Of a stretch of DNA of 64,000 nucleotides, positions 6,748-30,235 are shown piece by piece. A program made the translations under genes and the position numbers. The notes under the pieces were generated by a model, which saw only the letters and a list, made by a program, of their open reading frames with translations, was not told the DNA's origin and did not search any database. Source of the DNA: Oceaniovalibus sp. ACAM 378 (GTDB lineage: Bacteria > Pseudomonadota > Alphaproteobacteria > Rhodobacterales > Rhodobacteraceae); contig NZ_VSJK01000003.1 of the NCBI RefSeq assembly GCF_008085915.1, positions 1 to 64,000 of the forward strand, written 5' to 3'. The first letter of the stretch is position 1, and each line of letters starts with the position of its first letter.

Positions 6748-7218
6748 ATGCGGCACAGCAGATCATTGTGGCCATACTCGTCAGCCCCAAGGATCACATC
6801 GTCGTCGGTTTCCATATCTGCGGCGATGGTTCTCGCTTTGACTGATGCTGCAGATGCCGAGGTTCGGGACGGGCGCGACCTCTATGTCGAACATTGCGCA
6901 TCCTGCCACGGCGCAGAATTGCAGGGCCAACCGGAATGGCGCAGCCCGGATAAAGGCGGCCTCTACCTTGCCCCGCCGCATGACGAATCCGGCCATACCT
7001 GGCAACATGACGATTCGATGTTGACCGACTACATCACGCGTGGCGGGCAGGCGGTGGTGGACGATATGAACGTGTCCTTCACCTCGGGCATGCCGGACTT
7101 TGGAATGGTGCTGACCGACAGCGAGATCACGGCCATTCTTGACTACATCAAGTCGACCTGGCCCGACCGCATTCGCGCGACGCAGGCGCAGCGGTCGCAG
7201 GATGCGTGGGTCGATTGA
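6748..7218 (+). CDS. Exported monohaem c-type cytochrome
   Basis: A 156-residue periplasmic cytochrome c with one CASCH haem site near residue 49 and a distal Met candidate in the SGMPDFG segment near residue 114, as in small class I cytochromes. The start at 6748 is chosen because it has AAGGAA seven bases upstream. It also creates a normal signal peptide: basic MRHSRSLWPYSSAPR, a hydrophobic stretch, and a cut after AADA. Starting at the later ATG (6826) would lose that export signal. Its 5' end overlaps the start region of the divergent DUF3489 pseudogene only slightly upstream. Redox partner unknown; copper and cytochrome genes nearby suggest a role in respiration under changing oxygen. 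Confidence 0.8.
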   Translation: MRHSRSLWPYSSAPRITSSSVSISAAMVLALTDAADAEVRDGRDLYVEHCASCHGAELQGQPEWRSPDKGGLYLAPPHDESGHTWQHDDSMLTDYITRGGQAVVDDMNVSFTSGMPDFGMVLTDSEITAILDYIKSTWPDRIRATQAQRSQDAWVD

Positions 7219-13570: not shown

Positions 13571-13696
13571 GGTGCTATTCCTCGCAATGGGTGTACCGGG
13601 GTAAAACGTGTCGAATTGGATGGAGAAACAATGGTAAGCGCGAGAGTGCCGCACGCCGCGCCTATTTCCGAATGCGGCGTGTGGATCTCGACCGGA

Positions 13697-14824: not shown

Positions 14825-14906
14825 TTTGGCTTTTCCTTTAAGATCTGATTCCCGACCGATTGAGGCCGGGGTCCAACGAATTGGCATCCCTGAGGAGGCC
14901 ACGGCA

Positions 14907-15464
14907 TCACGCAGTTGAGATGATCTTGGGTGGAAATGGGTCGGGTGCTGCGTTTCGACCCAGCGTCATGGCAAAGTCTCGCTTAAAGATATCTGAGCCA
15001 GTGGCGCGGGGCACGGCCTGCTCGAAGGAGTGCGGGGTCGGCGCGCAGAAGGCACAAGCGATATGCATCCCTGACCCGCTATGATGCGTCTTCTGACTGG
15101 GTTGATCGCAACACGGAACGGGATGCGCCGTCACTGCCGCAACTTTCTGCGCGTTCGCTGATCCCGACGCGATTGCTGGTACACCGCCGACAACTACGCC
15201 GCTCACCAGCAACAGAGCGACAAACAACAAGGGATAAGCGTTCGACATCTTGAAGTGGGTGTAGGCGCTGAATGCGGTGGCAATTGCGCCCGCGATGAAG
15301 GAAAGCTGAAACAGCGGTCCCGCCAGCTCGGCGATCTGACCGCTCAGCCCGAAGATGCCTGCGCCAATCATCATGCTGGTACCAATCGCAACGGTGCCGT
15401 GCAGGGCGATGCTGTTGACCAAATCCACGGCTTTCAAGTGAGGTTGGCCTGCAGACGCGTTCAT
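14907..15464 (-). pseudogene. Chimeric ORF: amino-acid permease N-terminus fused to a Cys-rich exported protein
   Basis: The ATG at 15464 overlaps the copper ATPase stop (ATGA). Residues 1-75 match the start of APC-type amino-acid permeases, including IGTSMMIGAGIFGLSGQIAE, up to FKMSNAYP, where the real permease should continue for 350 more residues. Instead the frame passes into a different protein: a hydrophobic stretch (LLFVALLLVSGVVVGG), a Cys/His cluster (PCCDQP...HIACAFCAP) and a C-terminal PPK...SA tail, resembling DUF2946-like small secreted proteins. The junction is near 15,235. It reads as the product of a deletion that joined two genes in frame. Whether it is expressed is unknown. 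Confidence 0.65.
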
Positions 15465-17890
15465 AGCCTGACCCGCTTCAACAGCTGCGCATTGATCGCC
15501 ACCACGATTGTGCTCGCCGACATTAGCACCGCGCCGATCGCGGGGGTAAGCACGATGCCCCACGGTGCCAAAACGCCTGCAGCAAGGGGTATAGCGAAGA
15601 TGTTATAACCTGCCGCCCACCAGAGATTCTGCATCATCTTTCGGTATGTGGCTTGGCTCAGGGTGATGATCCGGGGGATGTCACGCGGATCGGACCGCAC
15701 CAGCACAATGTGGCCGGCCTCGACGGCGACGTCCGCGCCCGCCCCGATCGCGATCCCGATATCGGCGGTGGCCAGGGCCGGGGCGTCGTTGACGCCGTCG
15801 CCGATCATGGCGACTTTCTTGCCTTGGGCCTGAAGTTCCCGGACCTTCGAGGCTTTCTCCTCTGGCAACACTTCCGCGAACACGGTGTCGATGCCAAGTT
15901 CCTTGGCGACGGCATCGGCCACGGCTTGCGCGTCGCCGGTCAGCATGGCGACTTCGATCCCCCGGTCATGCAGCGCTGCGATGGCTTCGCGGCTTTCTTC
16001 GCGGATCGCGTCCGCCACAGCGTAGACGGCAAGCGCTTTGCCTTCGCGAACCAGATATATCGCCGCCTGCCCACGGTCGGCCGCAGCCCCGGCGGCCTCC
16101 AAAAGCGCTGGCGGCACTTGGACATTCTCGGCCTTGAGGAGCGCCGGGCCGCCCATGTGGTATTCTGCGCCGTCGATCGTTGCTGCCACACCCTTTCCGG
16201 TGATCGAGCGGAAGCCGTCGGCTGATGGGACCGCAATGCCTTTGTCTTCCGCAGTCTTCACGATCCCTCGGGCAATCGGATGTTGGGACTCGGCTTCAAT
16301 ACCGGACGCGATCCGAAGCGCTTCATTCTCTGAAAGGCCGTCCGCGACGGACATTGCGACAACCCGGAACTCGCCCAGCGTCAACGTGCCCGTCTTGTCG
16401 AAGATTACGGTGTCGAGATTGCGGGCCTCCTCCAAGCCACGCCGGTCCCGCACAAGCAGCCCGTTCTGCGCCCCCAGCGTCGTGGATATGGCCACCACGA
16501 GCGGCACCGCCAGCCCCAATGCGTGTGGGCAGGCAATCACCAGAACCGTCACCATCCGCACCACGGAAAAGTCTATCTCTGCCCCGGCCAGTTGCCACGC
16601 GGCGAAAGTCAAGACGGCAGCGACGATCGCGGCAACCGTCAGAAGCCGGGCTGCGCGGTCGGCAAGATGCTGCGCTCTGGATTTGGACGTCTGCGCATCG
16701 GCCACCAGCCGCATGATGCCGGACAGCTTTGTCTTGTCGCCCGTTCCGGTGACTTCGATGCGCAGAGAACCTTCGCCGTTGATCGTCGCGGCGATCACTT
16801 CGTCGCCTTCGCCTTTTCTCACGGGTCGCGATTCGCCAGTGATCATCGCCTCGTCGATGTCGCTTGTTCCCTTGCGAACCACCCCATCCGCGGGAACACT
16901 TTCACCCGGGCGCACGAGAAGCAGGTCGCCGTTCTGCAAGGCGCTTATGGCGACCTCTTCCTCGCCTGCATCGGTGATCCTCGTTGCGGTATCCGGCAAA
17001 AGCTTTGCCAGTTCCTTCAGGGCGCCCTCGGCCTGATTTATGGACCGCATCTCGATCCAGTGGCCGAGCAGCATGATCGTGACCAGCGTTGCCAGTTCCC
17101 ACCACAGCGCACTCGCGTCAATAAATCCAAGCTGAACAACCCATGAGAACACGAAGGCAACCGTGATGGCGAGCGAGATCAGGGTCATCATCCCCGGCAG
17201 CCGGTCTTTCAACTCTCGCCACGCGCCTTGCAGGAAGACCAGACCGCCGTAGAGGAATACGGCCGTGGACAAGACAGCCGGCATCCAGTCTGATCCGGGG
17301 AACGCCGGGGCTTGGTAGCCCAGCAAATCCTCGATGTGGGCAGACCAGATGACCACCGGAACAGTGACAGCCAGCGACAGCCAGAAGCGGTCCCGGAACA
17401 TCGCGGGAGAATGGCCCTGGTGTTTGTCGTGGTTTTCGTGGCCCGCATGGCCGGATGGTTGTTTCGGCCTGTCGGTCTGCTTGTCAGTTGAGGGTGTCGA
17501 TGCATCCGACACCCTGTCGTCGTGTCGGTCATTGCCTGCGTGTGCGCCCAGCGTGGCGGCAGGGATATCGGTCTTTGACTTCGGCCCGGTCGACACGACC
17601 GCGGCATCCGGTTCGCCCTTGTCTAAGTGGCCTTTGTGCTTGTCGGTGTGCAGATCTTCGGCAACGGGCACATCTTTCGCCTGTTTGGCGCGTTGCAGGC
17701 CAAGCTCACGTACAGTCGATTTAATATCGGCAACCGCAACGCGGGTTTCGTCATAGCGAACCGTGGCGCTTTCCGCTGCGAAATTCACCGTAACACTTTC
17801 AACGTCAGGCACCTCGCCAATCCGGCTTTCCACTTCGTCGAGGCTCCACACCGACAACATGTCGCCCACTTTGATTACGCTCGTTTTCAT
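15461..17890 (-). CDS. copB: CopB-type copper-exporting P-type ATPase
   Basis: An 809-residue P1B ATPase. Domains in order: a degenerate heavy-metal-associated domain (residues 1-65) in which the usual CxxC is replaced by MLSVWS; a His-rich linker (GHAGHENHDKHQGHS near 150); membrane helices; actuator motif TGESRPV near 335; the metal-site motif CPHALG in helix 6; phosphorylation site DKTGTLT near 485; HP motif SQHPIARG; and GDGVNDAPAL near 705. CPH in place of CPC marks the CopB/P1B-3 group, linked to export of Cu2+ or Cu+ to the periplasm. The downstream chimeric ORF is translationally coupled. Confidence 0.9.
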   Translation of the reverse strand: MKTSVIKVGDMLSVWSLDEVESRIGEVPDVESVTVNFAAESATVRYDETRVAVADIKSTVRELGLQRAKQAKDVPVAEDLHTDKHKGHLDKGEPDAAVVSTGPKSKTDIPAATLGAHAGNDRHDDRVSDASTPSTDKQTDRPKQPSGHAGHENHDKHQGHSPAMFRDRFWLSLAVTVPVVIWSAHIEDLLGYQAPAFPGSDWMPAVLSTAVFLYGGLVFLQGAWRELKDRLPGMMTLISLAITVAFVFSWVVQLGFIDASALWWELATLVTIMLLGHWIEMRSINQAEGALKELAKLLPDTATRITDAGEEEVAISALQNGDLLLVRPGESVPADGVVRKGTSDIDEAMITGESRPVRKGEGDEVIAATINGEGSLRIEVTGTGDKTKLSGIMRLVADAQTSKSRAQHLADRAARLLTVAAIVAAVLTFAAWQLAGAEIDFSVVRMVTVLVIACPHALGLAVPLVVAISTTLGAQNGLLVRDRRGLEEARNLDTVIFDKTGTLTLGEFRVVAMSVADGLSENEALRIASGIEAESQHPIARGIVKTAEDKGIAVPSADGFRSITGKGVAATIDGAEYHMGGPALLKAENVQVPPALLEAAGAAADRGQAAIYLVREGKALAVYAVADAIREESREAIAALHDRGIEVAMLTGDAQAVADAVAKELGIDTVFAEVLPEEKASKVRELQAQGKKVAMIGDGVNDAPALATADIGIAIGAGADVAVEAGHIVLVRSDPRDIPRIITLSQATYRKMMQNLWWAAGYNIFAIPLAAGVLAPWGIVLTPAIGAVLMSASTIVVAINAQLLKRVRL

Positions 17891-18586: not shown

Positions 18587-18654
18587 GCGGTATTCTGCCT
18601 ATCCCAAATGAATCCGGATCAATTGTAACATAGAATACCCGTCCCAGTTACACA

Positions 18655-18668
18655 CTGATCTAGATCAA
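18655..18668. promoter_or_regulatory. Near-consensus FNR-type anaerobox
   Basis: The sequence CTGATCTAGATCAA differs at one position from the FNR/FnrL consensus TTGAT-N4-ATCAA. It lies between the divergent Cys-rich gene (about 75 bases from its ATG) and the DMT exporter gene (about 86 bases). This placement would allow oxygen-dependent control of one or both, but it is seen only by eye. Confidence 0.5.
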
Positions 18669-18747
18669 CTCAGCAATGACCGGTGAGACTACATTCTGAC
18701 TTCACCTTCTAAATCCCAGCAAGGGGCCGAAGCATGATACTTGAGAA

Positions 18748-19701: not shown

Positions 19702-19807
19702 TTGTCGATGAGCCCTAACTGACCCAGTTTAACGCAGTACTTGCCGGATTACCGCATATCAACAGCGACACCTCAAAGCGGTGTGTATCCGGCGCAAGGA
19801 GAAACCG

Positions 19808-20860
19808 ATGAATGCAGCGAAAAAGATCCGGGTCGCCGTCAATGGCTATGGCGTGATCGGAAAGCGTGTCGCCGACGCCGTGGCCCAACAGGACGATATG
19901 GAACTTGCAGGGGTGGCGGATATCAGTGTCGACTGGCGCCCGCGGATGGCAATGCAGAAAGGGTTTCGCCTCTGCGGCGCCACCGGGGACCATGCAGAGG
20001 CGATGCGGAACGCCGGTCTCGATGTCGCCGGGAACCTCGATGATCTGCTCGCGGCGAGTGATCTGGTGGTTGACTGCACGCCAAAGCGAATCGCGGCGGT
20101 CAATGTCGACATCTATCGACAAAGAGGCATCAAATTCATTGTGCAGGGGGGCGAAAAGCACGAGGTGACCGGACATTCCTTTGTCGCCGAGACCAGCTAT
20201 GCCAGCGCGTTGAACCGGGACAGCACGCGCGTCGTCTCTTGTAATACAACATCGATCGTCAGGACCCTTACAGCGCTGAAGCACACGGGTCTGCTACATC
20301 GCGCACGCGGGACGCTGCTGCGCCGGGCGACGGATCCATGGGAAAGCCACCTTGGCGGTATCATGAACACACTTGTCCCCGAGCCCGAGATTCCCAGCCA
20401 TCAAGGGCCGGATGCGCAGAGCGTGGACCCTGACCTCGATGTGATCACAATGGCGGTCAAGGTGCCAGAGACCCTGGCGCATTTGCATTACTGGTCGGTG
20501 CAGTTGACCCGACCAGCCTCCAAGGAGGAGGTGCTCGCTGCCTTTTCCGCCTCATCACGGATCGCTTTAATCCGCATGGATGCCGGATTGACGGCACTTA
20601 ACACGGTCAAGGAACTGATGGCCGACCTCGGCCGCCCGCATGACAGCCTTTACGAAGTGGCGCTTTGGTCGGATATGCTGAAAGTGGAAGGCGACGAGTT
20701 GTTCTACGCCTACATGGTTGATAATCAGGCCATCGTCATTCCCGAGACCATCGACGCGATCCGGGCATTGACTGGAACGATCAGCAAAGCCGAAGAGTCG
20801 ATCGCCAAAACCAACGCAACGCTCGGGATCGGCTTGCTGACCGAGGCGCTGGGGCAATGA
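19808..20860 (+). CDS. gap2: Type II (archaeal-type) glyceraldehyde-3-phosphate dehydrogenase
   Basis: 350 residues of the archaeal phosphorylating GAPDH family, which oxidises glyceraldehyde 3-phosphate to 1,3-bisphosphoglycerate with NAD(P). The N-terminal KIRVAVNGYGVIGKRVADAV is the nucleotide fold. The catalytic Cys is in SCNTTSIVRT (Cys145), as in archaeal enzymes, not the SCTTN of bacterial Gap. GVADIS and VQGGEKHEV also match. Start at 19808 has GCAAGGAG upstream. Bacterial examples are uncommon. Glyceraldehyde 3-phosphate is a phosphoketolase product, so a link to the xfp gene 6 kb away is attractive but inferred. The ATP-grasp gene follows by 76 bases. Confidence 0.88.
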   Translation: MNAAKKIRVAVNGYGVIGKRVADAVAQQDDMELAGVADISVDWRPRMAMQKGFRLCGATGDHAEAMRNAGLDVAGNLDDLLAASDLVVDCTPKRIAAVNVDIYRQRGIKFIVQGGEKHEVTGHSFVAETSYASALNRDSTRVVSCNTTSIVRTLTALKHTGLLHRARGTLLRRATDPWESHLGGIMNTLVPEPEIPSHQGPDAQSVDPDLDVITMAVKVPETLAHLHYWSVQLTRPASKEEVLAAFSASSRIALIRMDAGLTALNTVKELMADLGRPHDSLYEVALWSDMLKVEGDELFYAYMVDNQAIVIPETIDAIRALTGTISKAEESIAKTNATLGIGLLTEALGQ

Positions 20861-20936: not shown

Positions 20937-22214
20937 ATGAGCGATCCAGACGCCACTTCCTCCAGTGCGGATCACACCCTTTCGGAGCGGCTGAACCAGA
21001 ACTGTTTCTGTGTCACACTCGACCGTCAGTTACTTTGCGAGGCGTTGGAGCACGAGGCCGCTGACCCGGAGTTCTGCGAGGCGTACATCCGCCCCAAGGC
21101 CCACTTGTTCGCGAACGTCCCGGTGTTCCTTTCGGCCAGCCAGGTGGCCGACATGCAGGCGGTGGTCGTTGCGATCGAAGCGACGACCCGGCTCGCTTCA
21201 TACAAGGCTGCGGTTCTGTCATGGGCCCCCGAAATCTCATGCGAAGATCACGGTCCGATCGGTGCGTTGATGGGCTACGACTTCCATCTTGGCGTGGACG
21301 GGCCGCGGTTGATCGAGATCAATACCAATGCCGGCGGAGCATTCCTCAATGCCCTTCTCGCCAGGGCGCAGCGCGCGTGCTGTGCCGAAATGGACATGCC
21401 GTTGGTGCCGCAAACCTTTGGGTACGCGGCGGTTCGCATGTTTCAGGAAGAATGGGTGCGCCAACGCGGAACCGGCACACCACATCGGATCGCCATCGTC
21501 GACGACAATCCGGAGGAACAATACCTCTATCCCGAGTTTGTGCTCGTGCGGCAGGTTCTGGCTGCGCGCGGTATCGACGCGGTTATCGCGGACGCCAGCA
21601 ACCTCCGCTATGAGGGTGGCCAGCTCAGCGTCGAGGGAAAACCAATCGATCTCGTTTACAACCGGGTCACCGATTTCGCGTTTGAGCAGCCAGAGTACCG
21701 GGCGCTACGTGAGGCCTACCGTGATGGCGCGGTGGTCGTGACGCCAAATCCGCACAACCACGCCCTTCTCGCCGACAAGCGCAACCTTTCACTTCTCTCC
21801 GATCCGACGGTGCTCGAAGATTGGGGTCTGGATCCGACACATCTGGCCCGGCTCAGATCGATCCCCCGCACTGTCCTCGTCACTCCTGAAAACGCCGATG
21901 ACATGTGGAAGTCGCGTAAGGGCCTGTTCTTCAAGCCGATGGGTGGACATGGCGGCAAGGCGGTGTACCGTGGCGACAAGGTGACGAAAGGCGTCTGGGC
22001 AGAAATCGAACGGGGCGGCTACGTCGCCCAGACCTTGGTTCGGCCCAGCGAACGCATGATCAAGATCGACGACGTACCTCAGGTGCGGAAGATGGATGTC
22101 CGGCTCTATACCTATGACAGCCGCGTGCTTCTGGTGGCTGCGCGTCTCTATCAGGGCCAGACCACAAATTTCAGGACGCCAGGAGGCGGGTTCGCTCCAG
22201 TATTCGTGGTCTGA
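20937..22214 (+). CDS. ATP-grasp family protein (glutathione-synthase-like)
   Basis: 425 residues. The central DGPRLIEINTNAGGAFLNALL near residue 120 and GLFFKPMGGHGGKAVYRGDKV near 330 resemble the Mg/ATP-binding and glycine-rich loops of ATP-grasp ligases. The C-terminal MDVRLYTYDSRVLLVAARLYQGQTTNFRTPGGGFAP holds acidic and Asn ligands. Such enzymes join a carboxylate to an amine or thiol through an acyl phosphate. Residues 1-110 are all-helical with Cys residues (NQNCFCVTLD) and are not recognised. The gene follows gap2 closely and is probably cotranscribed. Substrate unknown; a peptide-like or redox cofactor product is one possibility. Confidence 0.75.
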   Translation: MSDPDATSSSADHTLSERLNQNCFCVTLDRQLLCEALEHEAADPEFCEAYIRPKAHLFANVPVFLSASQVADMQAVVVAIEATTRLASYKAAVLSWAPEISCEDHGPIGALMGYDFHLGVDGPRLIEINTNAGGAFLNALLARAQRACCAEMDMPLVPQTFGYAAVRMFQEEWVRQRGTGTPHRIAIVDDNPEEQYLYPEFVLVRQVLAARGIDAVIADASNLRYEGGQLSVEGKPIDLVYNRVTDFAFEQPEYRALREAYRDGAVVVTPNPHNHALLADKRNLSLLSDPTVLEDWGLDPTHLARLRSIPRTVLVTPENADDMWKSRKGLFFKPMGGHGGKAVYRGDKVTKGVWAEIERGGYVAQTLVRPSERMIKIDDVPQVRKMDVRLYTYDSRVLLVAARLYQGQTTNFRTPGGGFAPVFVV

Positions 22215-22293: not shown

Positions 22294-23049
22294 TCACGGT
22301 CCGAGTGGCGCTTGGATCGTCCCTGCGCTGCCACGGACTGCACGGCCCTTGGCGCGTACGGTCGCGATGTAGGCAATCCATCGTAAAAGCAAAACCATGA
22401 CGACCAGACCGGCAAACCATGGCCGAAGTGGGTTGGGGTCAGGTACAGCACGGTGGAAACTCAGGAAATGGATGAACAGAAAATAGCCGGCATGCGCCAC
22501 CGTCAACCACCACAACGGCAGCACACCCATCTGCAAGAACTTCCAGCCCGACACTCCAAGCCGACGCATTGCGAGGTTGCTGGATGTTGCAGCCAGCAGG
22601 ATCACCAGCAACAGTGCCGAAAGCCCGACGGCATTTGCCAACGAGAAACCTTGCTGAAACATGACGTAGGCCTGCAACTCCGGGTGCCATTCGAACCCGA
22701 ACAGTCGCATCAGATCGTACTCCACCCAGCCGACAAGAACGATGGCGGTGTGGACCACGGCATAGAGACACGCCCATATGCCGAGCTCTCGCCGGAGCGC
22801 CAGAAGTCGTGTTGCAGACCGGAGCAGCCGCGCGAGGGGGCCGATGCCGACGGACAGAGCCACGAGAACCATCGCCGCGTCTCCAAAGGAGCGGTTCCAG
22901 CGGTGCATCGGGCTCCAGGTCGAATGGACGGCGGCAAAAACGCCAAGCAGACTTAAGCCGAGGGCCGCGACCAGTAAGTGCCGGACGGCGGTGTTTCGCG
23001 TGCCAATATGGATTTGGATTGGCACCAATAGCTTCTTGACGAAAGTCAT
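22294..23049 (-). CDS. YedZ/ferric-reductase-like haem membrane protein
   Basis: 251 residues with six or seven membrane helices of the ferric-reductase-like type. Candidate haem b ligands are paired His residues in CLYAVVHTAIVLVGW (near residue 107) and WWLTVAHAGYFLFIHFLSFH (near 190-205). MsrQ-type proteins of this fold pass quinol or flavin electrons to a periplasmic partner. No msrP gene is next to it. It is the last gene of a five-gene minus-strand set with cytochromes and a CPTC-motif protein; its ATG follows the previous stop with no gap. It could feed electrons between the quinone pool and the cytochromes encoded upstream. Confidence 0.75.
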   Translation of the reverse strand: MTFVKKLLVPIQIHIGTRNTAVRHLLVAALGLSLLGVFAAVHSTWSPMHRWNRSFGDAAMVLVALSVGIGPLARLLRSATRLLALRRELGIWACLYAVVHTAIVLVGWVEYDLMRLFGFEWHPELQAYVMFQQGFSLANAVGLSALLLVILLAATSSNLAMRRLGVSGWKFLQMGVLPLWWLTVAHAGYFLFIHFLSFHRAVPDPNPLRPWFAGLVVMVLLLRWIAYIATVRAKGRAVRGSAGTIQAPLGP

Positions 23050-23535
23050 TCAGCTTAGCTCCTCTGCAGAAATTTCAATCTTGGGCACTGGGGCGGCCAC
23101 CAGTTGGTCCCTGAACGCCTGCCATGACCGGAAGGCCGCGTAGCCCATTGCCAGTATCCCAAACACCGACAGCACCGGGCGGAACGGATCAAACCACGCG
23201 AGCAACGCAGGGCCACCAAAGATCAGCATCAGCACCTTGTTGCAGGTCGGGCACGCGATGCCGAGGAACCCGACGATGCCCCCACTTCCGGGCGCGCGCA
23301 TGCGGCATCGAGGAACCCAAAAGGCTGACGTGACACCCGCGAGTGCGGCGAGCATGGCTGTCGCCGCCAACTCCCAAGTTCCGACTGGTGTCATGCGCGT
23401 GAATAATGGATTGGCCCAGACCGCCGACACGGTCCCAATCACCACAAAGAGAGCAAGCGCAACAAGCGTTCCTCGCAAGCCCCGTTTCGAAAGTTCGGTC
23501 CTGTCGATCAGGATGGAATGACCCTTAGTCTGCAT
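23050..23535 (-). CDS. Membrane protein with a CPTC motif
   Basis: 161 residues with four hydrophobic segments (about residues 21-41, 53-73, 84-108, 122-142). A CPTCNK motif lies at residues 95-100 inside or next to helix 3, followed by VLMLIFGGPALLAWFDP. CxxC motifs in or near membrane helices act in disulfide exchange or metal binding. The start at 23535 overlaps the preceding stop by 11 bases, so the two are coupled. No family firmly recognised. The layout (cytochromes, then this, then a haem membrane protein) suggests a thiol or copper step in an electron-transfer chain. Confidence 0.65.
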   Translation of the reverse strand: MQTKGHSILIDRTELSKRGLRGTLVALALFVVIGTVSAVWANPLFTRMTPVGTWELAATAMLAALAGVTSAFWVPRCRMRAPGSGGIVGFLGIACPTCNKVLMLIFGGPALLAWFDPFRPVLSVFGILAMGYAAFRSWQAFRDQLVAAPVPKIEISAEELS

Positions 23536-23953
23536 TGAACTCGACCTCTGCAAATTCCTCGCCCATGCCGACGTTTACGACCCATCGCCCCGCCATCGGC
23601 AACTTGAAGCGCACCCTCCAGACACCGGCCGCGATCGGTTGCAAGGGCGGTTCGATCCCATCCATGTGCATCTGAACCATGGCAAAATTGACGCTCGGCC
23701 GCATGTCAGCCGTCTCAATTCCATCTGCTGCGTGCAAAAACTGAAGATCCAGCTGAATATCTCTGTTCCCGAGGGCGAAGACCTGCGCCTCGATGCGCCC
23801 GTCCGACAGGACTTCCGACAGCGTCGCAGTTGCCGCCGGAACCGCTGCCGGTGCTTCGCCTTGGGCTGACGGTCGGACCGTTGCCCAGATGAACGCTCCT
23901 GCAAACAGAACGAACCCGACAGCAAGAATCGCGGCGATAAACCTAGTTTTCAT
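23525..23953 (-). CDS. YtkA/FixH-like single-span periplasmic protein
   Basis: 142 residues: one N-terminal membrane anchor (residues 4-27), a linker rich in Ala/Pro, then a beta-sandwich-like domain. The pattern NFAMVQMHMDGIEPPLQPIAAG followed by VRFKLPMAGRWVVNVG matches YtkA/FixH-type domains, with Met and His residues (MVQMHMDG) that could bind copper, as in copper-delivery proteins for oxidases. Its ATG overlaps the stop of the upstream dihaem cytochrome gene by 11 bases. The assignment is by pattern; copper binding is inference. Confidence 0.65.
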   Translation of the reverse strand: MKTRFIAAILAVGFVLFAGAFIWATVRPSAQGEAPAAVPAATATLSEVLSDGRIEAQVFALGNRDIQLDLQFLHAADGIETADMRPSVNFAMVQMHMDGIEPPLQPIAAGVWRVRFKLPMAGRWVVNVGMGEEFAEVEFNAD

Positions 23954-24926
23954 TGGTCATAGCCATAGTTGAGTGGTCCATGATGGCGGCCATGGGCGTG
24001 GCAGCGACGGGAATGTCAGGTGGTGGCACGATCCCGGTTCCTTCGGGATCAAGGAGGTAACTGGCGATGGCCTCGCGGTCGTCCTCGGACAGGAACGCTG
24101 TGCCAAATTTCACCACCTCGGCCATACTTCCGCCGAAGGCGTCGCCGCTCGGCAGGATGCCGGACTTCAGAGCGTAGGAGAGATTGGCCACTGTCCAGCC
24201 ATTTGCGAGAAGATCGGCGATCTGGATCGATGGCGCTTTGCTCCCACCCGGAAGTTGAGCATTTCCGCCAAAGCGCTCGCTGTCGAGGCCCCCAGCCAGA
24301 TTGCGACCAGTGTGGCATGCCGCGCAGTGTGCAGCGCCCTCGACCAGAAGTCGACCGCGGTTCCAAGAGTTCGAGGTGCCCAATCGTGCATCTGTCGAAG
24401 GCGCATCAAGGTAGATTGCCCGCCAAAGCTTGAGGCCTGACCGAAAGCTGAACGGGAAACCGACGTTGTGGGCCGCTGCTTCGTTGGCCACTGGTGGCAC
24501 CGTCCGGAAGGCTTCCCACAAGTCGGCAATGTCCTGATCTGTGAATCCAGCATAGAATTCGTAGGTGAAGACCGGATAGTAGGGGTCCCCGTCTGGCGAT
24601 ACGCCTTGCCGTACGGCCTGTGCGAAGTTCTGGATCGTCCAGCTGCCGATACCATCCTGCAGGTGAGGCGTGATGTTTGGCGGAACGAAACTGCCGAAGG
24701 GCGTGTCAAGCGGCGCGCCGCCCGCAAGCGCCGGACCCGCCGTGACCGCGTCGGTATGGCAAGAAATGCAACCGCTGGCCCGTGCAAGATAAGCGCCGCG
24801 CTCGGCGTTTCCTGGCGGAAAAGCGGCAGGCTCCGTGGCGCCGATGGCCCAGAGCGATAGCACTATGGCTCCCGCACCAACCAGCACCGTTGGTAAAACG
24901 ATCCCTGCTCTAATGATGCCCCGCAT
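23943..24926 (-). CDS. Dihaem c-type cytochrome, membrane-anchored
   Basis: 327 residues with an uncleaved or cleaved N-terminal hydrophobic segment (residues 8-30) and two haem sites, CISCH at 53-57 and CAACH around residue 205. The intervening NITPHLQDGIGSWTIQNFAQAVRQGVSPDG segment is typical of the cytochrome subunits of membrane-bound alcohol, gluconate and sorbitol dehydrogenases, and LSEDDREAIASYLL is the usual tail helix. No dehydrogenase subunit is adjacent, so here the partner is likely the cytochrome c' made just upstream (ATGs 3-4 bases apart) or the YedZ-like protein. Confidence 0.85.
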   Translation of the reverse strand: MRGIIRAGIVLPTVLVGAGAIVLSLWAIGATEPAAFPPGNAERGAYLARASGCISCHTDAVTAGPALAGGAPLDTPFGSFVPPNITPHLQDGIGSWTIQNFAQAVRQGVSPDGDPYYPVFTYEFYAGFTDQDIADLWEAFRTVPPVANEAAAHNVGFPFSFRSGLKLWRAIYLDAPSTDARLGTSNSWNRGRLLVEGAAHCAACHTGRNLAGGLDSERFGGNAQLPGGSKAPSIQIADLLANGWTVANLSYALKSGILPSGDAFGGSMAEVVKFGTAFLSEDDREAIASYLLDPEGTGIVPPPDIPVAATPMAAIMDHSTMAMTNEN

Positions 24927-24929
24927 GGT

Positions 24930-25574
24930 TCAGCTCCGACCGGCGCGGAACTGCGCGTGGCAAGAAGAACAGGTCGCGGTGATCCGCTGAAACAGGTCAT
25001 CTGCCGCCAGGGACGCAAGATCAACTTCGAGTGTTGCTGAGTTGATGGTCGCCCGCGCAAAGGAAGCGGTGTCTGCGGGTCCGCCATAGCCCATCAGTTC
25101 CGCAACGGTAAAGGACTTTTCTGCCGGTGGGGTTGTGGCCATCGCCATGCCGGAGTGAACCATATCGGCCATAGCATTCGGTGGCGGCGTGGCGGGCTGC
25201 AGCCCGTTCGGCGCGGCTTTCGACAGGGCTTCGGCGTAAACACGAAGCTCTTGCGCCATCGCGGAAAAATCCCGCCACTTAACCCAGATTTCCGGTTTGG
25301 CGTAGGTCACGCCCTCAAGGCTGCCCTCGGGAAACAGTGCCATCATCGTATCACCCGCATGCCCTGCAATCACCGCGCCGCCATCTGAAACTACGAATGC
25401 ATTGTAGGGAACCGTGCCCTGCATCATGGGCGCGAGTTCGCTCACAATGTCACGCATCGCGGTCATGCCGGTCATGCGCTCGAGGCCAACCCCTGTTGCC
25501 CCCGAATGAGCCAGCGCCGCAACCGCGGCCAAAGAAATAAATGCAGCAAATATGCCCGTCGTGCCTGATGTCAT
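24930..25574 (-). CDS. Cytochrome c' family protein
   Basis: 214 residues with a signal peptide (TGIFAAFISLAAVAALAHS) and one haem site, CSSCH, within TATCSSCHAQFRAGRS at the extreme C-terminus. That is the class II (cytochrome c') arrangement of a four-helix bundle with C-terminal haem attachment. It is longer than typical cytochrome c' (about 130-150) because of a Pro/Met-rich insertion around residues 125-155 (GMAMATTPPAEKS). Cytochromes c' bind NO and may protect against it. It is the first gene of the five-gene operon. GTG at 25586 is an alternative start giving four more residues. Confidence 0.78.
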   Translation of the reverse strand: MTSGTTGIFAAFISLAAVAALAHSGATGVGLERMTGMTAMRDIVSELAPMMQGTVPYNAFVVSDGGAVIAGHAGDTMMALFPEGSLEGVTYAKPEIWVKWRDFSAMAQELRVYAEALSKAAPNGLQPATPPPNAMADMVHSGMAMATTPPAEKSFTVAELMGYGGPADTASFARATINSATLEVDLASLAADDLFQRITATCSSCHAQFRAGRS

Positions 25575-25758
25575 CAGCCTGTCCACCCAGTGCTTTTATT
25601 GTTGGAACTGCCTTCAAACCCGCGTGCGCGCATGAGGCGCAGCGGAAAGCAAGGCTCGTAAAGGTGGGATGTCCAGCTTTCCCGACCGCGCGCCCGGACG
25701 TTTCGGTGCGTACCGATAATCCCGTCCGCCGGGTCAATAAAGCAAACGATTCCCGCTT

Positions 25759-26124
25759 TCAGGCGGCGAAGCGTGGAGGCGGAAGATCGATTGCAGGACC
25801 AGCAATGTCGTGCGTAAGTTGCTCGCCGGATGGAGCCAAGGTCATAGTGGCAGTTTCAATCCGTACAGCGGCTGCATGTTCCAGAACCAGATAAGCCGAG
25901 CACGACAGGCCCTTGTCGCAGAGCATTGCATGTTCGGGGGAAGGTTCCGACGATGCGGTAATTGAGGTTTGATCGTCATGCCCCTGCTCGAACGCCAACG
26001 TGGCCACGGGAGCGAGGACGAGTACAGCGATCAGACACATTGTCAGCCAGCTTCGAAAAGCAATCAGGACCGCTTGCAGGCGGTCTCGAACAGAGGATGC
26101 AAGGGGCGATCTTGTCGTGCCCAC
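25759..26124 (-). CDS. Small exported Cys-containing protein (DUF2946-like)
   Basis: 121 residues with an N-terminal hydrophobic stretch (WLTMCLIAVLVLAPVATLA), then MLCDKGLSCSAYLV around residue 70, and a proline-rich tail DLPPPRFAA. The plan matches the protein at 18,182 and the second half of the chimeric ORF at 14,907. It lies upstream of the cytochrome c' operon with 172 bases between, same direction, and 12 bases after the next small gene. Role unknown; association with redox/metal genes is the only clue. Confidence 0.5.
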   Translation of the reverse strand: MGTTRSPLASSVRDRLQAVLIAFRSWLTMCLIAVLVLAPVATLAFEQGHDDQTSITASSEPSPEHAMLCDKGLSCSAYLVLEHAAAVRIETATMTLAPSGEQLTHDIAGPAIDLPPPRFAA

Positions 26125-26136: not shown

Positions 26137-26496
26137 TCACTTGGGTTCCGATCGGGTCGGGGCCCAGCTTCGGTCGACGGGTTTTTCCACTACCTCGGTA
26201 TAGCCGCGGCGTGTCAGGTCATTGGTCAAGGGCACCGACGTCGAGGTCGAGGTCGAGGTCGAGAAAAGTCGCATCTTGCCGTCGCTGGTCCAGAACTGCA
26301 GCGCCCGGATAGCGGTGTCGCCAATGATGATCCCGCGACCGAGTGCGTCGGAATGGTCTTGCCAATCGCGCACCGGAGACGAAAAAATACTATTTCGGAC
26401 CGATGCTTCGGTGTTTTGCGAAGCCAGAACGCCTTGCGCCGATATCATGAACGCGGCCGACGCACCCACGAGAAGCCTTCGGCAACTGAATCGCAT
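26137..26496 (-). CDS. Exported protein of unknown function with a Ser-Thr repeat
   Basis: 119 residues from the ATG at 26496, chosen for its AAGGAG site in AAAAGAAGGAGCAGTCG. A signal peptide (RRLLVGASAAFMISAQGVLA) is clear. The mature part has HSDALGRGIIIGDTAIRALQFW, then STSTSTSTS (about residues 79-87) encoded by a hexanucleotide repeat, then RRGYTEVVEKPVDRSW. No family recognised. It directly precedes the Cys-containing gene (12 bases) and may share its transcript. Confidence 0.6.
   Translation of the reverse strand: MRFSCRRLLVGASAAFMISAQGVLASQNTEASVRNSIFSSPVRDWQDHSDALGRGIIIGDTAIRALQFWTSDGKMRLFSTSTSTSTSVPLTNDLTRRGYTEVVEKPVDRSWAPTRSEPK
26241..26263 (-). repeat. Hexanucleotide tandem repeat inside a gene
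   Basis: Nearly four copies of TCGAGG lie in the coding region of the exported protein and encode alternating Ser and Thr. Changes in copy number would add or remove two residues without shifting the frame. Confidence 0.85.
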
Positions 26497-26676
26497 CGAC
26501 TGCTCCTTCTTTTCTTTTTTATGCAGCCTTCCATTATGGGTGGTCAAACGGATTGCCGCTTCGCTAAGTCACAATCGGGTGAGCCCGTGTCTGGCGCGCT
26601 GCAGTTGTACCGGCATGTCCAAAATCACCGCGTTGTGATGACCGCATTAGTGGTGCCTGCCTGCTAGTATAACGGC

Positions 26677-26973
26677 ATGCGGGTTTTGTTACTCTTCTTC
26701 TGGTTTTTCATGGCCATCACGGCTGCTCCAAATGTCACGGAGCAGAACGACTTTGCGTCTGCGGTCGATCGCGCCGGGCAGATGGAACTTTCCTACGATC
26801 TTTTTTGTAGCAAGGGCGGAGTCCATGGATCTTGCCAGTGGGTCGGGAACTCCCCGCCAACGGTGTCGATCCCGAATGTCGGCCTGGCAGACGCCGCTTC
26901 CGTGATCGCCCCAATGCCCGTCACCAGACTGGTTTTTGGGCCTCAGCCACCCCCTCCACGACAGCTGTGCTGA
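26677..26973 (+). CDS. Small exported protein, unknown
   Basis: 98 residues with a strongly hydrophobic start (VLLLFFWFFMAITAAP), two Cys residues (LFCSKGGVHGSCQW) near 44-53, and a tail QPPPPRQLC. The plan again recalls the small Cys/PP-tail proteins in this region, here on the plus strand and directly upstream of an L,D-transpeptidase gene (41 bases). The start lacks an obvious Shine-Dalgarno site, so expression is uncertain. Confidence 0.4.
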   Translation: MRVLLLFFWFFMAITAAPNVTEQNDFASAVDRAGQMELSYDLFCSKGGVHGSCQWVGNSPPTVSIPNVGLADAASVIAPMPVTRLVFGPQPPPPRQLC

Positions 26974-27014
26974 ACGAACGCCTCTCCCACCACAGTTTGC
27001 CACTTGGAGACAGT

Positions 27015-27578
27015 ATGTTAACCCGACGTTCCGCCATCGGTTGCACGGCAGCCGCGTTCCTGACCACGCCCAGCCTTTTGCGCGCCCATACAGTAAAGCC
27101 CTTTCTCCTGGCTGACGAATTCCAGCCCCGCGAGGTCCGTGTCCGGGAACAATATGCTGCGGGTCAGATCCTTGTGAACCCGCGCCTGTTCTTTCTCTAC
27201 CACATCATTGAGAGCGAGCGCGCAATCCGCTACGGCGTCGGTGTCGGTCGCGCCGGTCTGGAGTTCAAGGGATCGGCAATCATCGAGCGCAAAGCAGAGT
27301 GGCCCTCCTGGCGGCCGACGAATGATATGATCCGGCGAAACCCTGACCGCTATGCCCAGTTTGCCGACGGGGTTCCCGGTGGTCCTGACAATCCTCTGGG
27401 TGCGCGCGCGCTCTACCTCTACAAGAACGGGATCGACACGTATTTTCGGATCCACGGCACGACAGAACCATGGTCCATCGGGACATCGGTCTCGAATGGT
27501 TGCATCCGGATGCTGAACGAACACGTCATCGATCTCTATCAGCAGGTTCCGGTCGGAACTCTGGTGACAGTGCTGTGA
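27015..27578 (+). CDS. L,D-transpeptidase (YkuD domain)
   Basis: 187 residues. An N-terminal export signal (MLTRRSAIGCTAAAFL) has a twin-arginine-like RR. The catalytic YkuD domain runs from about residue 50. RYGVGVGRAGLEFKG is the early beta sheet, RIHGTTEPWSIG near 150 holds the first catalytic His, and SVSNGCIRML near 166 contains the catalytic Cys. These enzymes form 3-3 peptidoglycan cross-links or attach proteins to the wall. Its stop overlaps a GTG (GTGA) that starts the broken DsbA-like frame, so the two were coupled. A second L,D-transpeptidase lies 2 kb away on the other strand. Confidence 0.88.
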   Translation: MLTRRSAIGCTAAAFLTTPSLLRAHTVKPFLLADEFQPREVRVREQYAAGQILVNPRLFFLYHIIESERAIRYGVGVGRAGLEFKGSAIIERKAEWPSWRPTNDMIRRNPDRYAQFADGVPGGPDNPLGARALYLYKNGIDTYFRIHGTTEPWSIGTSVSNGCIRMLNEHVIDLYQQVPVGTLVTVL

Positions 27579-28341
27579 GGGCCAAACCCCGGTATCTTCT
27601 TATCATCGGGGCGACGATCAGAGCCATCTACGGTCTTCGCGCTATGCTCTGGGAGCGGTTTTCTGATCAAAGTCCAACGTATTCGGCTATCGACGGGTTG
27701 CCACCTTTGCGAACCTTGAAGACAGACGGAAAGGTATCAGAAGCATCCGTAGCCCTCATTGGCCTTCATGTTCCGGACGAGGATGCCCCGGCACGTCGCG
27801 CACGCATGGGCGCGGTCAAGGCCAATCTCTGCGGGGCGCTGTTCGGCAAGAACCCGTCTTCGGGCATTGTTTCGATCGCGTATTGCAGCGCGTTCCTCTG
27901 CCCATATTGCCGAGCCCTCGAGCGCGCCCCTGACGAAATCCCTGCTGAAGAGTCTGGCACCGTCCAGCTTGCTCAGCACGAGTTGCCGTTCTTTGCGCCC
28001 CTTCGGAGCTTGCAGCGCGCGCGTAATTGGCTGCGGCGCGACAAGGTTTACAGCAACCCAACCGGCAGCGAGTCATACGCACTTTACTTGTCGCCGACCG
28101 GCGCGCGCTCCTCGTCGATGCTGCCGACGTCGGGCTCGACTTCGCCCGACTCGCACTGGACATGAACTCTGCAGCGGTTCAGGCTGAACTTGATCGCATC
28201 CGCGCCCTGACTGACGTGTTCGGCTTTGCCGGAACACAGGGCTTGGTTGTCGGACACACGGTTATACAAGGGGCAGTGCCTGGTTCGCGTCTGAGGCGCA
28301 ACATTGCCGACGAGCTTTCGTTGCCATCCCTCGCATGCTGA
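27575..28341 (+). pseudogene. DsbA-like thioredoxin-fold oxidoreductase, frameshifted
   Basis: The first frame (from GTG 27575) carries VSIAYCSAFLCPYCRALERA near residue 110, a DsbA-type CPYC active site, then QLAQHELPFFAPLRSL. From about base 28,027 the family resemblance moves to the frame one base earlier: AAARQGLQQP..., ADVGLDFARLALDMNS, then FGFAGTQGLVVGHTVIQGAVPG, which holds the region of the cis-Pro loop but reads GTQ in place of the usual GTP. The break lies around 28,018-28,028. With the shift removed it would be a roughly 255-residue exported disulfide oxidoreductase coupled to the L,D-transpeptidase. A sequencing error cannot be excluded. Confidence 0.75.
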
Positions 28342-28345
28342 AGAC

Positions 28346-28933
28346 ATGAACACACCATCCCACATACTTATCGGCGCCGCCGTCTTTTCGCGCCCCATGG
28401 CTTCGTCAATCCTGTTCTCAGCCCTGTTTGGCGGTCTTGCGCCCGATCTCCCCATACTGATGATGGTTCTGTGGAGCACGCGCCTTCTCGGAATTCCCGA
28501 GCATGAGGTGTTCGGGCAACTCTATTTTTCAGATACTTGGCAAGCCGTTTTTGCCATCGACCACGGGTTCCTGGTCTGGGGGAGTCTGTTTGGGCTGGCG
28601 GCCTGGCGCGGGTCGGTCATCCTGCGCGCCTTCGCGGGCTCAGGGCTGCTGCACGCCTCCGCCGATTTCCTGACCCACCACGACGACGCACGCCGACAGT
28701 TCTGGCCTGTCAGCGACTGGGTTTTTCAGAGCCCAGTCAGCTATTGGGACGGCCGCTTTTACGGCGACATCTTCGCACCCTTGGAATTAGGTCTGGTGAT
28801 TGCGCTGGCCGCTTTCCTACTCTGGCGCTTGGAGAAATGGCGCGACCGGCTTGCAGTCTTGGCCGTTGCAGCCGTTGTCGTGGTGCCCGCGCTCTGGACC
28901 GGAAGCCTGCACGGGTTGCATGGCATGGGATGA
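28346..28933 (+). CDS. Membrane protein of the YdjM/DUF457-like family
   Basis: 195 residues with the N-terminal MNTPSHILIGAAVF and FGGLAPDLPILMM, the His and Asp arrangement of membrane-bound metal-dependent hydrolase-like proteins (YdjM/DUF457). DHGFLVWGSLFG near residue 73 and GLLHASADFLTHHDDARR near 98 supply further His/Asp ligands, and HGLHGMG closes the chain. About four membrane helices. Homologues in this bacterial group are sometimes labelled cobalamin-biosynthesis CobQ-like without evidence. Start at 28346 rather than an upstream codon because the family begins with this motif. Substrate unknown. Confidence 0.72.
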   Translation: MNTPSHILIGAAVFSRPMASSILFSALFGGLAPDLPILMMVLWSTRLLGIPEHEVFGQLYFSDTWQAVFAIDHGFLVWGSLFGLAAWRGSVILRAFAGSGLLHASADFLTHHDDARRQFWPVSDWVFQSPVSYWDGRFYGDIFAPLELGLVIALAAFLLWRLEKWRDRLAVLAVAAVVVVPALWTGSLHGLHGMG

Positions 28934-29569: not shown

Positions 29570-30235
29570 TCAGCTGGTTGTAGCCACGTTACCCTCTTCT
29601 GCAGGGTAGAGGTGGGCGGTCGCACCTGTTTCGACCTGATCAAATAGGTCGTTGATATGTGGCATAACCATGCGCACGCACCCGGAACTAGCGCGGCTGC
29701 CGATTGAACGCGGAAGTGGTGTGCCATGAATGCGCAAATAGGTGTCACGCTCCCCGACGAAGAGATAGAGCGCACGCGATCCCAGTGCGTTTTCCGGTCC
29801 GGGTTCCATCCCGTCCGCGTACTTGGCATAGATTTCAGGCTCGCGGCTAATCATGTTCGGCGTGGGCGTCCAACTCGGCCACTTTGCCTTGCGCCGGATC
29901 GTATATGTGCCGGGCTCGTACAGACCGTCACGACCGATGGCTACACCGTAGCGCATGGCTGTTCCATCACCTTGAATATGGTACAGATATCGCGCGATTG
30001 CATCGACATGAATATCGCCCGGTACAAGCCCCTCACGTGCTTTGACCAAACGTGGCAGCAACCGCGGATGCAAGCCCCAAATGTTGGTTGTTTCACTGTC
30101 GTAGCCACGCGGAGTTACCTGAGCATCCCACGCGAACCACTGGTCTTGCAGATGGGTTGATGCGAAAACCGGGGCTGCAAAGGGCGGAGAAAGCAGAGCT
30201 GCTGCCGATATGATGAAATGGCGCCTGGTGAACAT
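29570..30235 (-). CDS. L,D-transpeptidase (YkuD domain)
   Basis: 221 residues. The export signal MFTRRHFIISAAALLSPPFA is twin-arginine-like. YGVAIGRDGLYEPGTYTIRRKAKWPSW and PNMISREPEIYAKYADGMEPGPENALGSRALYL are the conserved YkuD core. RIHGTPLPRSIG near 172 carries the catalytic His and SRASSGCVRM near 187 the Cys. It resembles the transpeptidase at 27,015 but has an additional 40 residues before the domain. Role: peptidoglycan 3-3 cross-linking or lipoprotein attachment. Confidence 0.9.
   Translation of the reverse strand: MFTRRHFIISAAALLSPPFAAPVFASTHLQDQWFAWDAQVTPRGYDSETTNIWGLHPRLLPRLVKAREGLVPGDIHVDAIARYLYHIQGDGTAMRYGVAIGRDGLYEPGTYTIRRKAKWPSWTPTPNMISREPEIYAKYADGMEPGPENALGSRALYLFVGERDTYLRIHGTPLPRSIGSRASSGCVRMVMPHINDLFDQVETGATAHLYPAEEGNVATTS

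Follow-up and report, generated by a model that had tools for sequence, protein, structure and literature searches.

Five adjoining genes in a 64,000-nucleotide stretch of DNA from Oceaniovalibus sp. ACAM 378 (the window) very probably constitute the redox core of a copper-resistance island that recurs in Rhodobacteraceae, with two modules joined in one unit. The first module is a c556-like class II cytochrome with a dihaem cytochrome, and the second comprises a CrdA/YtkA-like copper-site protein, a membrane protein with a CxxC motif (the CPTC protein), and a YedZ-like haem b protein. As judged from sequence, the composition, order, conservation, and motifs of the unit, its copper context, and the presence of a CueR-like dyad in relatives are established. 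The best overall explanation is that the unit acts as a redox arm for copper and thiols and would protect the envelope under copper, an explanation that we consider evenly poised between right and wrong. The island, which is often plasmid-borne, joins copper efflux genes, wall cross-linking enzymes, and an unstudied electron-transfer operon; if this link holds, it would open to testing the means by which bacteria preserve their wall and disulfides in the presence of copper, and would give the CPTC membrane family a first role.

Organization and recurrence of the five-gene unit

The five genes are open reading frames on the minus strand (Table 1) with junctions of +3, -11, -29, and 0 bases, which upholds the sequence-only reading of a tightly coupled five-gene redox operon; overlap or abutment, claimed for every junction, was found at three of four, the remaining one being a 3-base gap. 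The cytochrome c' frame (25586 to 24930) has an in-frame ATG at 25574, the coordinate given in that reading. For the 22 of 25 comparisons of the five frames in which dS could be estimated, dN was 0.17-0.40 and dS >1.4. Met/His-rich sequence, previously assigned to one component in the middle of the chain, is present, but as stretches in three of the five proteins. As also read earlier, the unit contains no MsrP, oxidase, or quinoprotein or flavoprotein dehydrogenase.

A genome scan listed 80 of 138 relatives, from which L090, without a CPTC frame, was dropped, leaving 79 loci. The scan used the pattern ACP[TV]CNK and a second pattern, and motif invariance among scanned loci is thus partly due to selection; loci L010-L015 came from tblastn, with no pattern used. 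The CPTC alignment had 54 rows after removal of close copies, the YtkA alignment included 41 of 45 YtkA references, and the conservation counts given below (41/41, 40/41, and 44/44) exclude L001-L009. The loci are not independent, most of them belonging to a single family.

The neighborhood search proposed earlier showed that the five families do co-occur elsewhere, as all five genes were found in the same order and on the same strand in 36 of the 79 listed CPTC loci, which exceeds what chance would give. Copper markers in 57 of the 79 loci bear out the suspected copper link of the operon, and an L,D-transpeptidase or PBP2 gene was present in 59. Among 198 sampled Rhodobacteraceae genomes, the source genome included, YtkA was found in 5 and CPTC in six (five strong matches and one weak), with both common to 4 genomes, the source genome among them. 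Within the 36 five-gene loci, an L,D-transpeptidase gene nearly always lies upstream, a predicted CueR-like dyad before this gene heads the unit in 33, the CPTC and haem genes overlap by four bases in 34, and a PBP2 gene lies downstream, overlapping the haem gene in 35. The earlier description is not so much mistaken as partial: relatives have a longer unit, and the chain that had been read as complete is not self-contained, given this PBP2 overlap and the separate occurrence of the two modules elsewhere.

The surrounding island carries genes for P-type ATPases, multicopper oxidase, DUF305, DUF411, and DsbA/ScsC-type proteins. The annotated relatives L007-L009 lie on plasmids with copper ATPase genes, DUF305, and DUF411, and with multicopper oxidase in two of the three stretches; the island DsbA protein of L009 has an ScsC N-terminal domain (PF18312). 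Copper islands as such are already known; among the papers listed in searches of the openly licensed literature, we found no description of this composition with the five-gene unit.

The window's copy of the island is partly broken: the dyad and PBP2 are missing, and neither LDT_b nor DsbA_a is whole. A search of the source genome did not find the island PBP2, the window holds no whole counterpart of the ScsC-type protein, and no dyad was found beside the window genes, the sole near match in the window (at 23118, inside the CPTC gene) being within chance. Because these elements are missing or broken, the window copy may be poorly expressed or decaying.

Table 1. Positions of the five-gene unit and of island-related features in the window
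Feature	Position	Strand	Remarks
YedZ/MsrQ-like ferric-reductase-domain haem b protein	22294..23049	-	R86, H100, H186, H199
CPTC membrane protein, four-helix	23050..23553	-	CPTCNK motif; TTG start as listed
YtkA/CrdA-like membrane-anchored beta-sandwich protein	23525..23953	-	NFAMVQMHM site
Dihaem cytochrome c	23943..24926	-	Resembles first two haem domains of ADH/FDH/GDH cytochrome subunits; Met-rich C-terminal tail
Class II cytochrome c (annotated c', c556-like)	24930..25586	-	Distal-site Met, Met-rich insert, C-terminal CSSCH
Counterpart of island gene h125	25759..26124	-	29% identity; before cytochrome c' gene
Remnant of L,D-transpeptidase LDT_b	26137..26547	-	Residues 2-113 of 189; catalytic part missing
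Intact L,D-transpeptidase LDT_a	26832..27578	+	80% to island gene, match from 27015
Broken DsbA_a gene	27815..28338	+	Readable in two frames only
Counterpart of island h209/'CobQ'	28304..28933	+	67% to Gemmobacter copy
Second intact L,D-transpeptidase	29570..30235	-	Type also near copper ATPases in control loci
Heavy-metal P-type ATPase	15461..17890	-	53% to island copper ATPase
Counterpart of island cytochrome c1	6850..7200	+	59% over residues 36-152; displaced from unit

The two modules

The class II cytochrome matches the Pfam cytochrome c' family (PF01322, E 3.2e-18), which favors the suggestion of NO detoxification made from the sequence alone, with a cytochrome c' that has a dedicated source of electrons. 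Yet the position aligned with Phe16 of 1jaf and Leu12 of 1a7v, which we take to be the distal haem site, is Met in 41 of 41 aligned relatives, and not the hydrophobic residue that, with a five-coordinate haem, marks the NO-binding cytochromes c'; cytochrome c556 has Met at this site. NO detoxification is not supported because Met occupies the distal site and, with the copper context and no NO genes annotated in L007-L009 also speaking against it, we regard it as extremely improbable. The C-terminal CxxCH motif is kept in 40 of 41 class II cytochromes.

Both cytochromes carry Met-rich stretches, and the dihaem protein, which has two CxxCH motifs only, aligns to the N-terminal part of the cytochrome c subunits of ADH/FDH/GDH (E ~4e-42), which feed ubiquinone. 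These features are consistent with respiratory Cu(I) oxidation, in which the Met-bearing cytochromes would be reduced by periplasmic Cu(I) and would in turn reduce the quinone pool or an oxidase, as multicopper oxidase backup at low oxygen, with the thiol pair secondary and the wall enzymes as cargo. This alternative, which gains from loci L141 and L144, where the cytochrome pair stands directly before multicopper oxidase and ScsC-type genes and CPTC, YtkA, and the haem protein are absent, is possible although on the unlikely side, as it leaves CPTC, the YedZ-like protein, and PBP2 unexplained, and as six loci have the second module without the cytochrome pair. Moreover, redox potentials suggest that the reduction of quinone by Met-bound Cu(I) may be energetically unfavorable.

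In the second module, the YtkA/FixH-like protein falls under both Pfam cut-offs (YtkA E 1.1e-3; FixH E 0.015, with 15.7 bits against a FixH cut-off of 23), and the best match of its predicted structure is the copper protein CrdA (E 2.1e-4). The CPTC protein was assigned no Pfam family, a search for a solved relative or fold found none, and it matches MerTP weakly (E 0.036). Its CPC-like motif lies in a membrane helix, and the membrane side that the motif faces is unsure because the model is weak there (block pLDDT 58-62, residues 81-110). CPTC relatives occur on plasmids of Alphaproteobacteria, Actinomycetota, and haloarchaea, and in other settings the gene adjoins thioredoxin and DsbA genes; a DsbA gene is followed by CPTC in L010, L012, L082, and L084, and an ScsB-like gene is ahead of CPTC in L010 and L084. 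The YedZ-like protein matches PF01794 (Ferric_reduct, E 1.3e-9), and has H100, H186, and H199 in 44/44 and R86 in 6/6. By its sequence it has the single-haem YedZ pattern, three His with an Arg replacing the first His, as this rule is outlined in PMC3591440. The haem protein is also found on copper plasmids without CPTC. In the 198 Rhodobacteraceae genomes it has strong matches in 14, 10 of these without CPTC; CPTC is missing from some versions of the unit and the haem protein from others.

These proteins could alternatively reduce Cu(II) and traffic the product: the ferric-reductase-like protein would act as the Cu(II) reductase, the YtkA-like protein would carry Cu(I), and the CPTC protein would bind copper or move it across the membrane by a MerT-like logic, for subsequent export by the ATPases. 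The modeled likeness to CrdA, the motif in a membrane helix, and the faint MerTP match fit this account, as do the yeast ferric-reductase-domain relatives that reduce Cu2+ according to PMC3591440; by contrast, the relevant passages of that source do not have short single-haem forms as known copper reductases, copper import is hard to justify in a resistance island, and CPTC keeps thioredoxin and DsbA neighbors elsewhere. We consider this account improbable, while the broader earlier suggestion that the unit reduces a periplasmic metal or matures a copper site is possible.

Copper, thiols, and the cell wall

L,D-transpeptidases, lipoprotein maturation, and periplasmic thiols are all targets of copper poisoning. 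Under the preferred copper and thiol explanation, the unit would, under copper load, control the redox state of copper and thiols on the periplasmic side and guard copper-poisoned envelope enzymes. Electrons from quinol would move outward via the YedZ-like haem to the CPTC pair, which would keep ScsC/DsbA-type proteins reduced, and these in turn would do the same for the catalytic cysteine of L,D-transpeptidases. The Met-bearing cytochromes and the YtkA-like protein would bind periplasmic Cu(I), whose electrons would enter the respiratory chain beside multicopper oxidase, and PBP2, a serine enzyme, would be a backup for wall cross-linking; in whole islands the unit runs from the dyad and L,D-transpeptidase gene to the spare PBP2. 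We infer the electron steps, their direction, and their targets, and hold this mechanism, including redox control, enzyme protection, and electron path, tentatively and at somewhat less than even confidence. In its favor, PMC8900818 describes ScsC as a Cu(I)-binding protein that ScsB maintains in the reduced state. In Vibrio cholerae, copper, alone among the metal salts tested, is described in PMC11390936 as inhibiting L,D-transpeptidase activity in vitro and in vivo.

L,D-transpeptidase genes were found in 35 of 46 full-length CPTC loci and in 9 of 20 copper-ATPase loci without CPTC (p 0.022), these controls being picked by hand from the top ATPase matches, with a single locus for each genome; L146, L147, L148, and L150 look nearly identical, L145 and L149 are short, and L153 is only 4,800 bases. 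Outside the five-gene class, full-length CPTC loci had such a gene in 7 of 18 cases (p 0.75 against the same controls), and a CPTC-specific link to L,D-transpeptidases thus failed outside that class. Copper-ATPase loci had an L,D-transpeptidase gene more often than arbitrary Rhodobacteraceae stretches did (9/20 vs 3/40, p 0.0013), the latter being drawn largely from other genomes, with at most two or three from each, and the HMMs having been built from copper-linked genes.

It may be that PBP2 and the transpeptidases are cargo. The whole could also be a set of copper-tolerant replacements (cytochromes, transpeptidases, and disulfide enzymes) that share no electron path, as suggested by the company of PBP2, L,D-transpeptidases, DsbA/ScsC proteins, and cytochromes in L007-L009, by an lgt gene adjoining the haem protein and copper ATPase genes in L131, by phosphoketolase in 3 of the 79 listed CPTC loci, and by copper inhibition of transpeptidases and lipoprotein maturation as reported in PMC9302775. 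The conserved overlaps of the haem gene with CPTC and with PBP2 nevertheless suggest a shared process, and we think a mere collection of replacements rather unlikely. A narrower form of the preferred explanation, a copper-proof cell-wall operon in which quinol- and haem-driven thiol repair would serve L,D-transpeptidases, co-expressed with a spare PBP2 and copper-binding cytochromes, is doubtful; if true, a haem protein would replace thioredoxin/DsbD as the periplasmic reducing source.

Relation to known systems

The class II protein shares the Cytochrom_C_2 family and C-terminal CxxCH with cytochromes c' and c556, while its distal Met, as in c556, and its Met-rich insert set it apart from cytochrome c'. 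In likeness to ADH/FDH/GDH complexes, the dihaem protein aligns to part of their cytochrome subunit, but it has two rather than three haem motifs and the unit has no dehydrogenase gene; a PQQ or flavin dehydrogenase complex was rejected on the latter ground. With Helicobacter pylori CrdA, YtkA, and FixH, the YtkA-like protein shares an N-terminal anchor and a beta sandwich, CrdA being the closest solved fold, whereas it scores under the Pfam cut-offs, has its own conserved site, and is coupled to CPTC and haem genes. FixGHIS/cbb3 oxidase assembly was rejected, given the sub-cut-off FixH score and the L007-L009 annotations, which list neither FixG nor an oxidase subunit. MsrPQ (YedYZ) likewise has a single-haem ferric-reductase-domain protein with the YedZ His/Arg pattern; here, however, the partners are CPTC, cytochromes, and copper proteins, and the NCBIfam MsrQ score is far under the cut-off (33.7 bits vs 130). 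This system was rejected because the L007-L009 annotations include no MsrP gene and a Pfam scan of 40 window proteins revealed none.

The island resembles ScsABCD in the ScsC-type DsbA protein with its ScsC_N domain (L009) and in the CPTC relatives of L010 and L084, which come after genes for ScsB-like and DsbA proteins, but ScsB was found in only one of the 36 five-gene loci (L047), and the unit has CPTC and the YedZ-like haem protein instead; tblastn with the L010 protein as query found ScsB, among the loci examined and the window, only in L010, L047, L084, and L094. Finally, copper ATPases, an HMA protein (CopZ-like), multicopper oxidase, DUF305, DUF411, and, in relatives, the CueR-like dyad are common to Cue/Cop-type islands, to which this island adds a coupled haem and thiol operon with PBP2 and L,D-transpeptidases.

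Recurrence of the five-gene unit and its partial versions

The five genes, which encode a c556-like cytochrome c', a dihaem cytochrome, a YtkA-like protein, a CPTC membrane protein, and a YedZ-like haem protein, occupy open minus-strand frames in the window with junctions of +3, -11, -29, and 0 bases, in that order, which bears out the coupled operon proposed in a sequence-only reading; 25574, the coordinate used in that reading, is an in-frame ATG within the c' gene. When plasmid records were searched by tblastn with the CPTC protein, 44 matched, those of Neotabrizicola, Tabrizicola, and Gemmobacter most closely. Annotation and blastp identified the same five genes in these three stretches. 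After them come PBP2 (mrdA) and genes for a cytochrome c, a DsbA, and a hypothetical protein, and their surroundings contain genes for P-type ATPases, an HMA protein, DUF305, a further DsbA, two L,D-transpeptidases, and DUF411; a multicopper oxidase is visible in two of the three annotated stretches. Of 138 relatives found by a genome scan, 80 were examined, and the 79 with a CPTC frame form the base of our locus counts. All five genes, in the same order and strand, were found by blastp in 36 of these 79 CPTC loci (37 by HMM), and the five families hence do co-occur elsewhere, which the sequence-only reading had proposed to check. PBP2 was present in 49 of the 79, 59 had L,D-transpeptidase or PBP2, and 57 had a copper marker. 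Of the 36 five-gene loci, 34 showed a 4-base overlap between the CPTC and haem genes and 35 an overlap between the haem gene and PBP2. The unit represents a copper-resistance island variant that recurs, and we did not find it described in the literature searched. Pseudogemmobacter bohemicus Cd-10 carries three island copies on a single contig (L046, L048, and L049; L-numbers denote individual loci).

Among 198 genomes sampled from the window's family, its own genome counted in, YtkA was found in 5, CPTC in 5 as strong matches and in one further as a weak match, and both together in 4, including the own genome; in the fifth YtkA genome, the gene lies at the end of a 3,130-base contig that also has both cytochromes and a match to LDT_b, one of two island L,D-transpeptidases. 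The haem protein was more widespread (14 strong matches, E <=6.3e-72, 10 of them without CPTC), with a P-type ATPase match nearby in 5 (L121, L122, L124, L125, and L127) of 8 stretches examined from the 10 CPTC-less genomes.

The unit comprises two modules, i.e., the cytochrome pair and YtkA-CPTC-haem. The pair stands apart from the rest in L141 and L144 (c', dihaem, multicopper oxidase, and ScsC-type DsbA), and YtkA-CPTC-haem occurs without it in L057, L058, L059, L065, L066, and L069, with an LDT_b match in all six and multicopper oxidase in four; in L067, a run of this type reaches CPTC, followed by the contig end. PBP2 is kept where the haem gene is absent (L060, L063, L064, and L079) and where YtkA and the haem gene are absent (L077, L078, and L081), and L120 has c'-dihaem-haem without CPTC. 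In Rhodospirillales (e.g., L010, L012, L082, and L084), CPTC lies directly 3' of a DsbA gene, with an ScsB-like DsbD gene also before it in L010 and L084. Conjugative plasmids of Phaeobacter, Martelella, and Roseovarius carry the haem protein alone, preceded, in this order, by copper ATPase, DUF2933, and isoprenylcysteine methyltransferase and followed by APC permease. A rival reading of the unit is a spare-parts island without a common electron path.

The conjugative copper plasmids with the haem protein alone have lgt (L131, Phaeobacter) or thymidine phosphorylase and ribose-phosphate diphosphokinase (L132 and L135) before the copper ATPase; on a Cytobacillus plasmid (L134), the haem protein adjoins lgt, MurE-type ligase, LTA synthase, and YdhK, which likewise belong to the envelope. 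On plasmids of haloarchaea and actinobacteria, CPTC relatives (L013, L014, and L015) have genes for thioredoxin-domain, CcdA, DUF302, DsrE, TlpA, or multicopper oxidase proteins in their vicinity.

State of the window copy

The window holds a degraded copy of the island unit. Its upstream side follows the island order, i.e., a counterpart of the island gene h125, LDT_b, and then, divergently, LDT_a (the other L,D-transpeptidase), DsbA_a (one of two island DsbA proteins), and the island gene h209; of LDT_b, an N-terminal part remains (residues 2-113 of 189), and DsbA_a can be read in two frames only. Beyond the haem gene, the place of PBP2 is taken by two adjoining genes, one for an ATP-grasp protein and one for type II GAPDH. 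A tblastn search of the window with island proteins found no whole PBP2, DsbA_b (the second DsbA), DUF411, or oxidase; elsewhere in the own genome, PBP2 is matched at best by a 51% copy, and another contig has an oxidase (66% identity). For the five genes, dN was 0.17-0.40 and dS >1.4 in 22 of 25 comparisons (dS not estimable in 3), which shows constraint across the whole divergence, not necessarily after truncation.

The sugar-metabolism genes around the copper ATPase are possibly, as a guess, a bypass of copper-sensitive glycolysis; phosphoketolase is also present in 3 of the 79 CPTC loci (L060, L063, and L092). The APC permease-like frame resembles an amino-acid (APC) permease that in L121 neighbors the haem protein and a copper ATPase.

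Features of the window
Feature	Coordinates	Strand	Basis or remark
c' gene, Cytochrom_C_2	25586-24930	-	Pfam E 3.2e-18
Dihaem cytochrome gene, Cytochrom_C	24926-23943	-	Pfam
YtkA-like gene	23953-23525	-	Pfam YtkA and FixH, both below cut-off
CPTC protein gene	23553-23050	-	without Pfam match
Haem protein gene, Ferric_reduct	23049-22294	-	Pfam E 1.3e-9
ATP-grasp-like protein	20937-22214		Pfam matches below cut-off
Cytochrome c1 counterpart	6850-7200		island tblastn match
6-phosphogluconate dehydrogenase, phosphoketolase, type II GAPDH	9407-20860		around copper ATPase
APC permease-like frame	14907-15563		apparently fragment
Copper ATPase	15461-17890		island tblastn match
L,D-transpeptidase genes	26832-27578, 29570-30235		near copper P-type ATPase

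Regulation and the L,D-transpeptidase link

An inverted repeat, TGACCTTCC-N6-GGAAGG, heads LDT_b with 0-2 changes in 33 of the 36 five-gene loci; L047 and L056 gave no LDT_b, and with the start used, L051 went undetected, yet the core is present there. The dyad resembles CueR promoters, the E. coli copA promoter used for comparison having a 7-base gap, and is a candidate operator. No such site was found beside the window's five genes, and 5 of the 36 stretches showed a MerR-type regulator (L034, L035, L052, L055, and L056).

As controls, we used 20 copper-ATPase loci that gave no CPTC match, one each from 20 of the 198 family genomes, and 40 arbitrary family windows. L,D-transpeptidase was present in 9 of the 20 (L141, L142, L146-L151, and L154, near copper P-type ATPase) as compared to 3 of the 40, a contrast inflated by near-identical control loci and by HMMs built from copper-linked genes; the link thus concerns copper loci as a whole rather than CPTC or the five genes specifically. 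None of the 20 or the 40 contained PBP2, CPTC, YtkA, or the haem gene, and c' and dihaem occurred in 2 and 0, respectively.

Protein features and a proposed redox role

In a profile alignment with solved cytochromes c', M41 of the window c' aligns with Phe16 of 1jaf and Leu12 of 1a7v, which we take to be the distal haem site, and all 41 distinct c' homologues have Met there. Met at this site is the c556 arrangement and disfavors NO binding, and we rejected the NO detoxification that the sequence-only reading had considered. A Met-rich stretch precedes the c' haem motif, in most rows of the MAGMDHSxMxM kind, and the tail of the dihaem cytochrome carries a comparable one. Among the YtkA-like proteins, M92 is kept in 38 of 38 rows and each MHM residue in 37 (a set without the distant forms of L057-L059, L066, L067, and L069). 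The predicted model of the window protein (mean pLDDT 82) was closest to CrdA, a copper protein of H. pylori (E 2.1e-4 and 9.1e-4; TM-scores 0.45-0.64), followed by DUF4426 and PmoD (E 5e-3 and 6e-3); sequence search alone gave only E 0.13 for CrdA. The C-P-x-C-N residues of the CPTC protein are invariant in 54 rows, and we read its hydropathy and charge profile as suggesting four membrane segments, N-terminus inside, the motif falling where the third is interrupted; the predicted model has low confidence around the motif and matched no solved structure at E 0.001.

We favor a reading of the unit as a copper and thiol redox arm, for which we infer every electron step: quinol electrons would pass to the YedZ-like haem protein, then to the CPTC protein, and then to ScsC/DsbA and transpeptidase thiols, while the Met-bearing cytochromes may take electrons from Cu(I). 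Rivals that also center on copper are respiratory Cu(I) oxidation and Cu(II) reduction and trafficking; the metal role suggested in the sequence-only reading is supported with regard to the metal, copper, and is not supported with regard to the chemistry.

With regard to known systems, the haem protein resembles YedZ/STEAP single-haem proteins, as H100, H186, and H199 (kept in 44 of 44) and R86 (6 of 6) fit the histidine/arginine rule in excerpts of PMC3591440. Excerpts of other reports describe copper as the sole inhibitor, among the tested metal salts, of V. cholerae L,D-transpeptidase activity, both in vitro and in vivo (PMC11390936), impairment of lipoprotein maturation and cross-linking of cysteines by copper (PMC9302775), and Cu(I) binding by ScsC, which is kept reduced by ScsB (PMC8900818). 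The copper and thiol redox arm is favored because of this copper damage, as these excerpts describe it, and because, in comparison with the Scs system, a ScsC-type protein is present in the island (PF18312 in L009), but ScsB was matched in just one of the 36 five-gene stretches.
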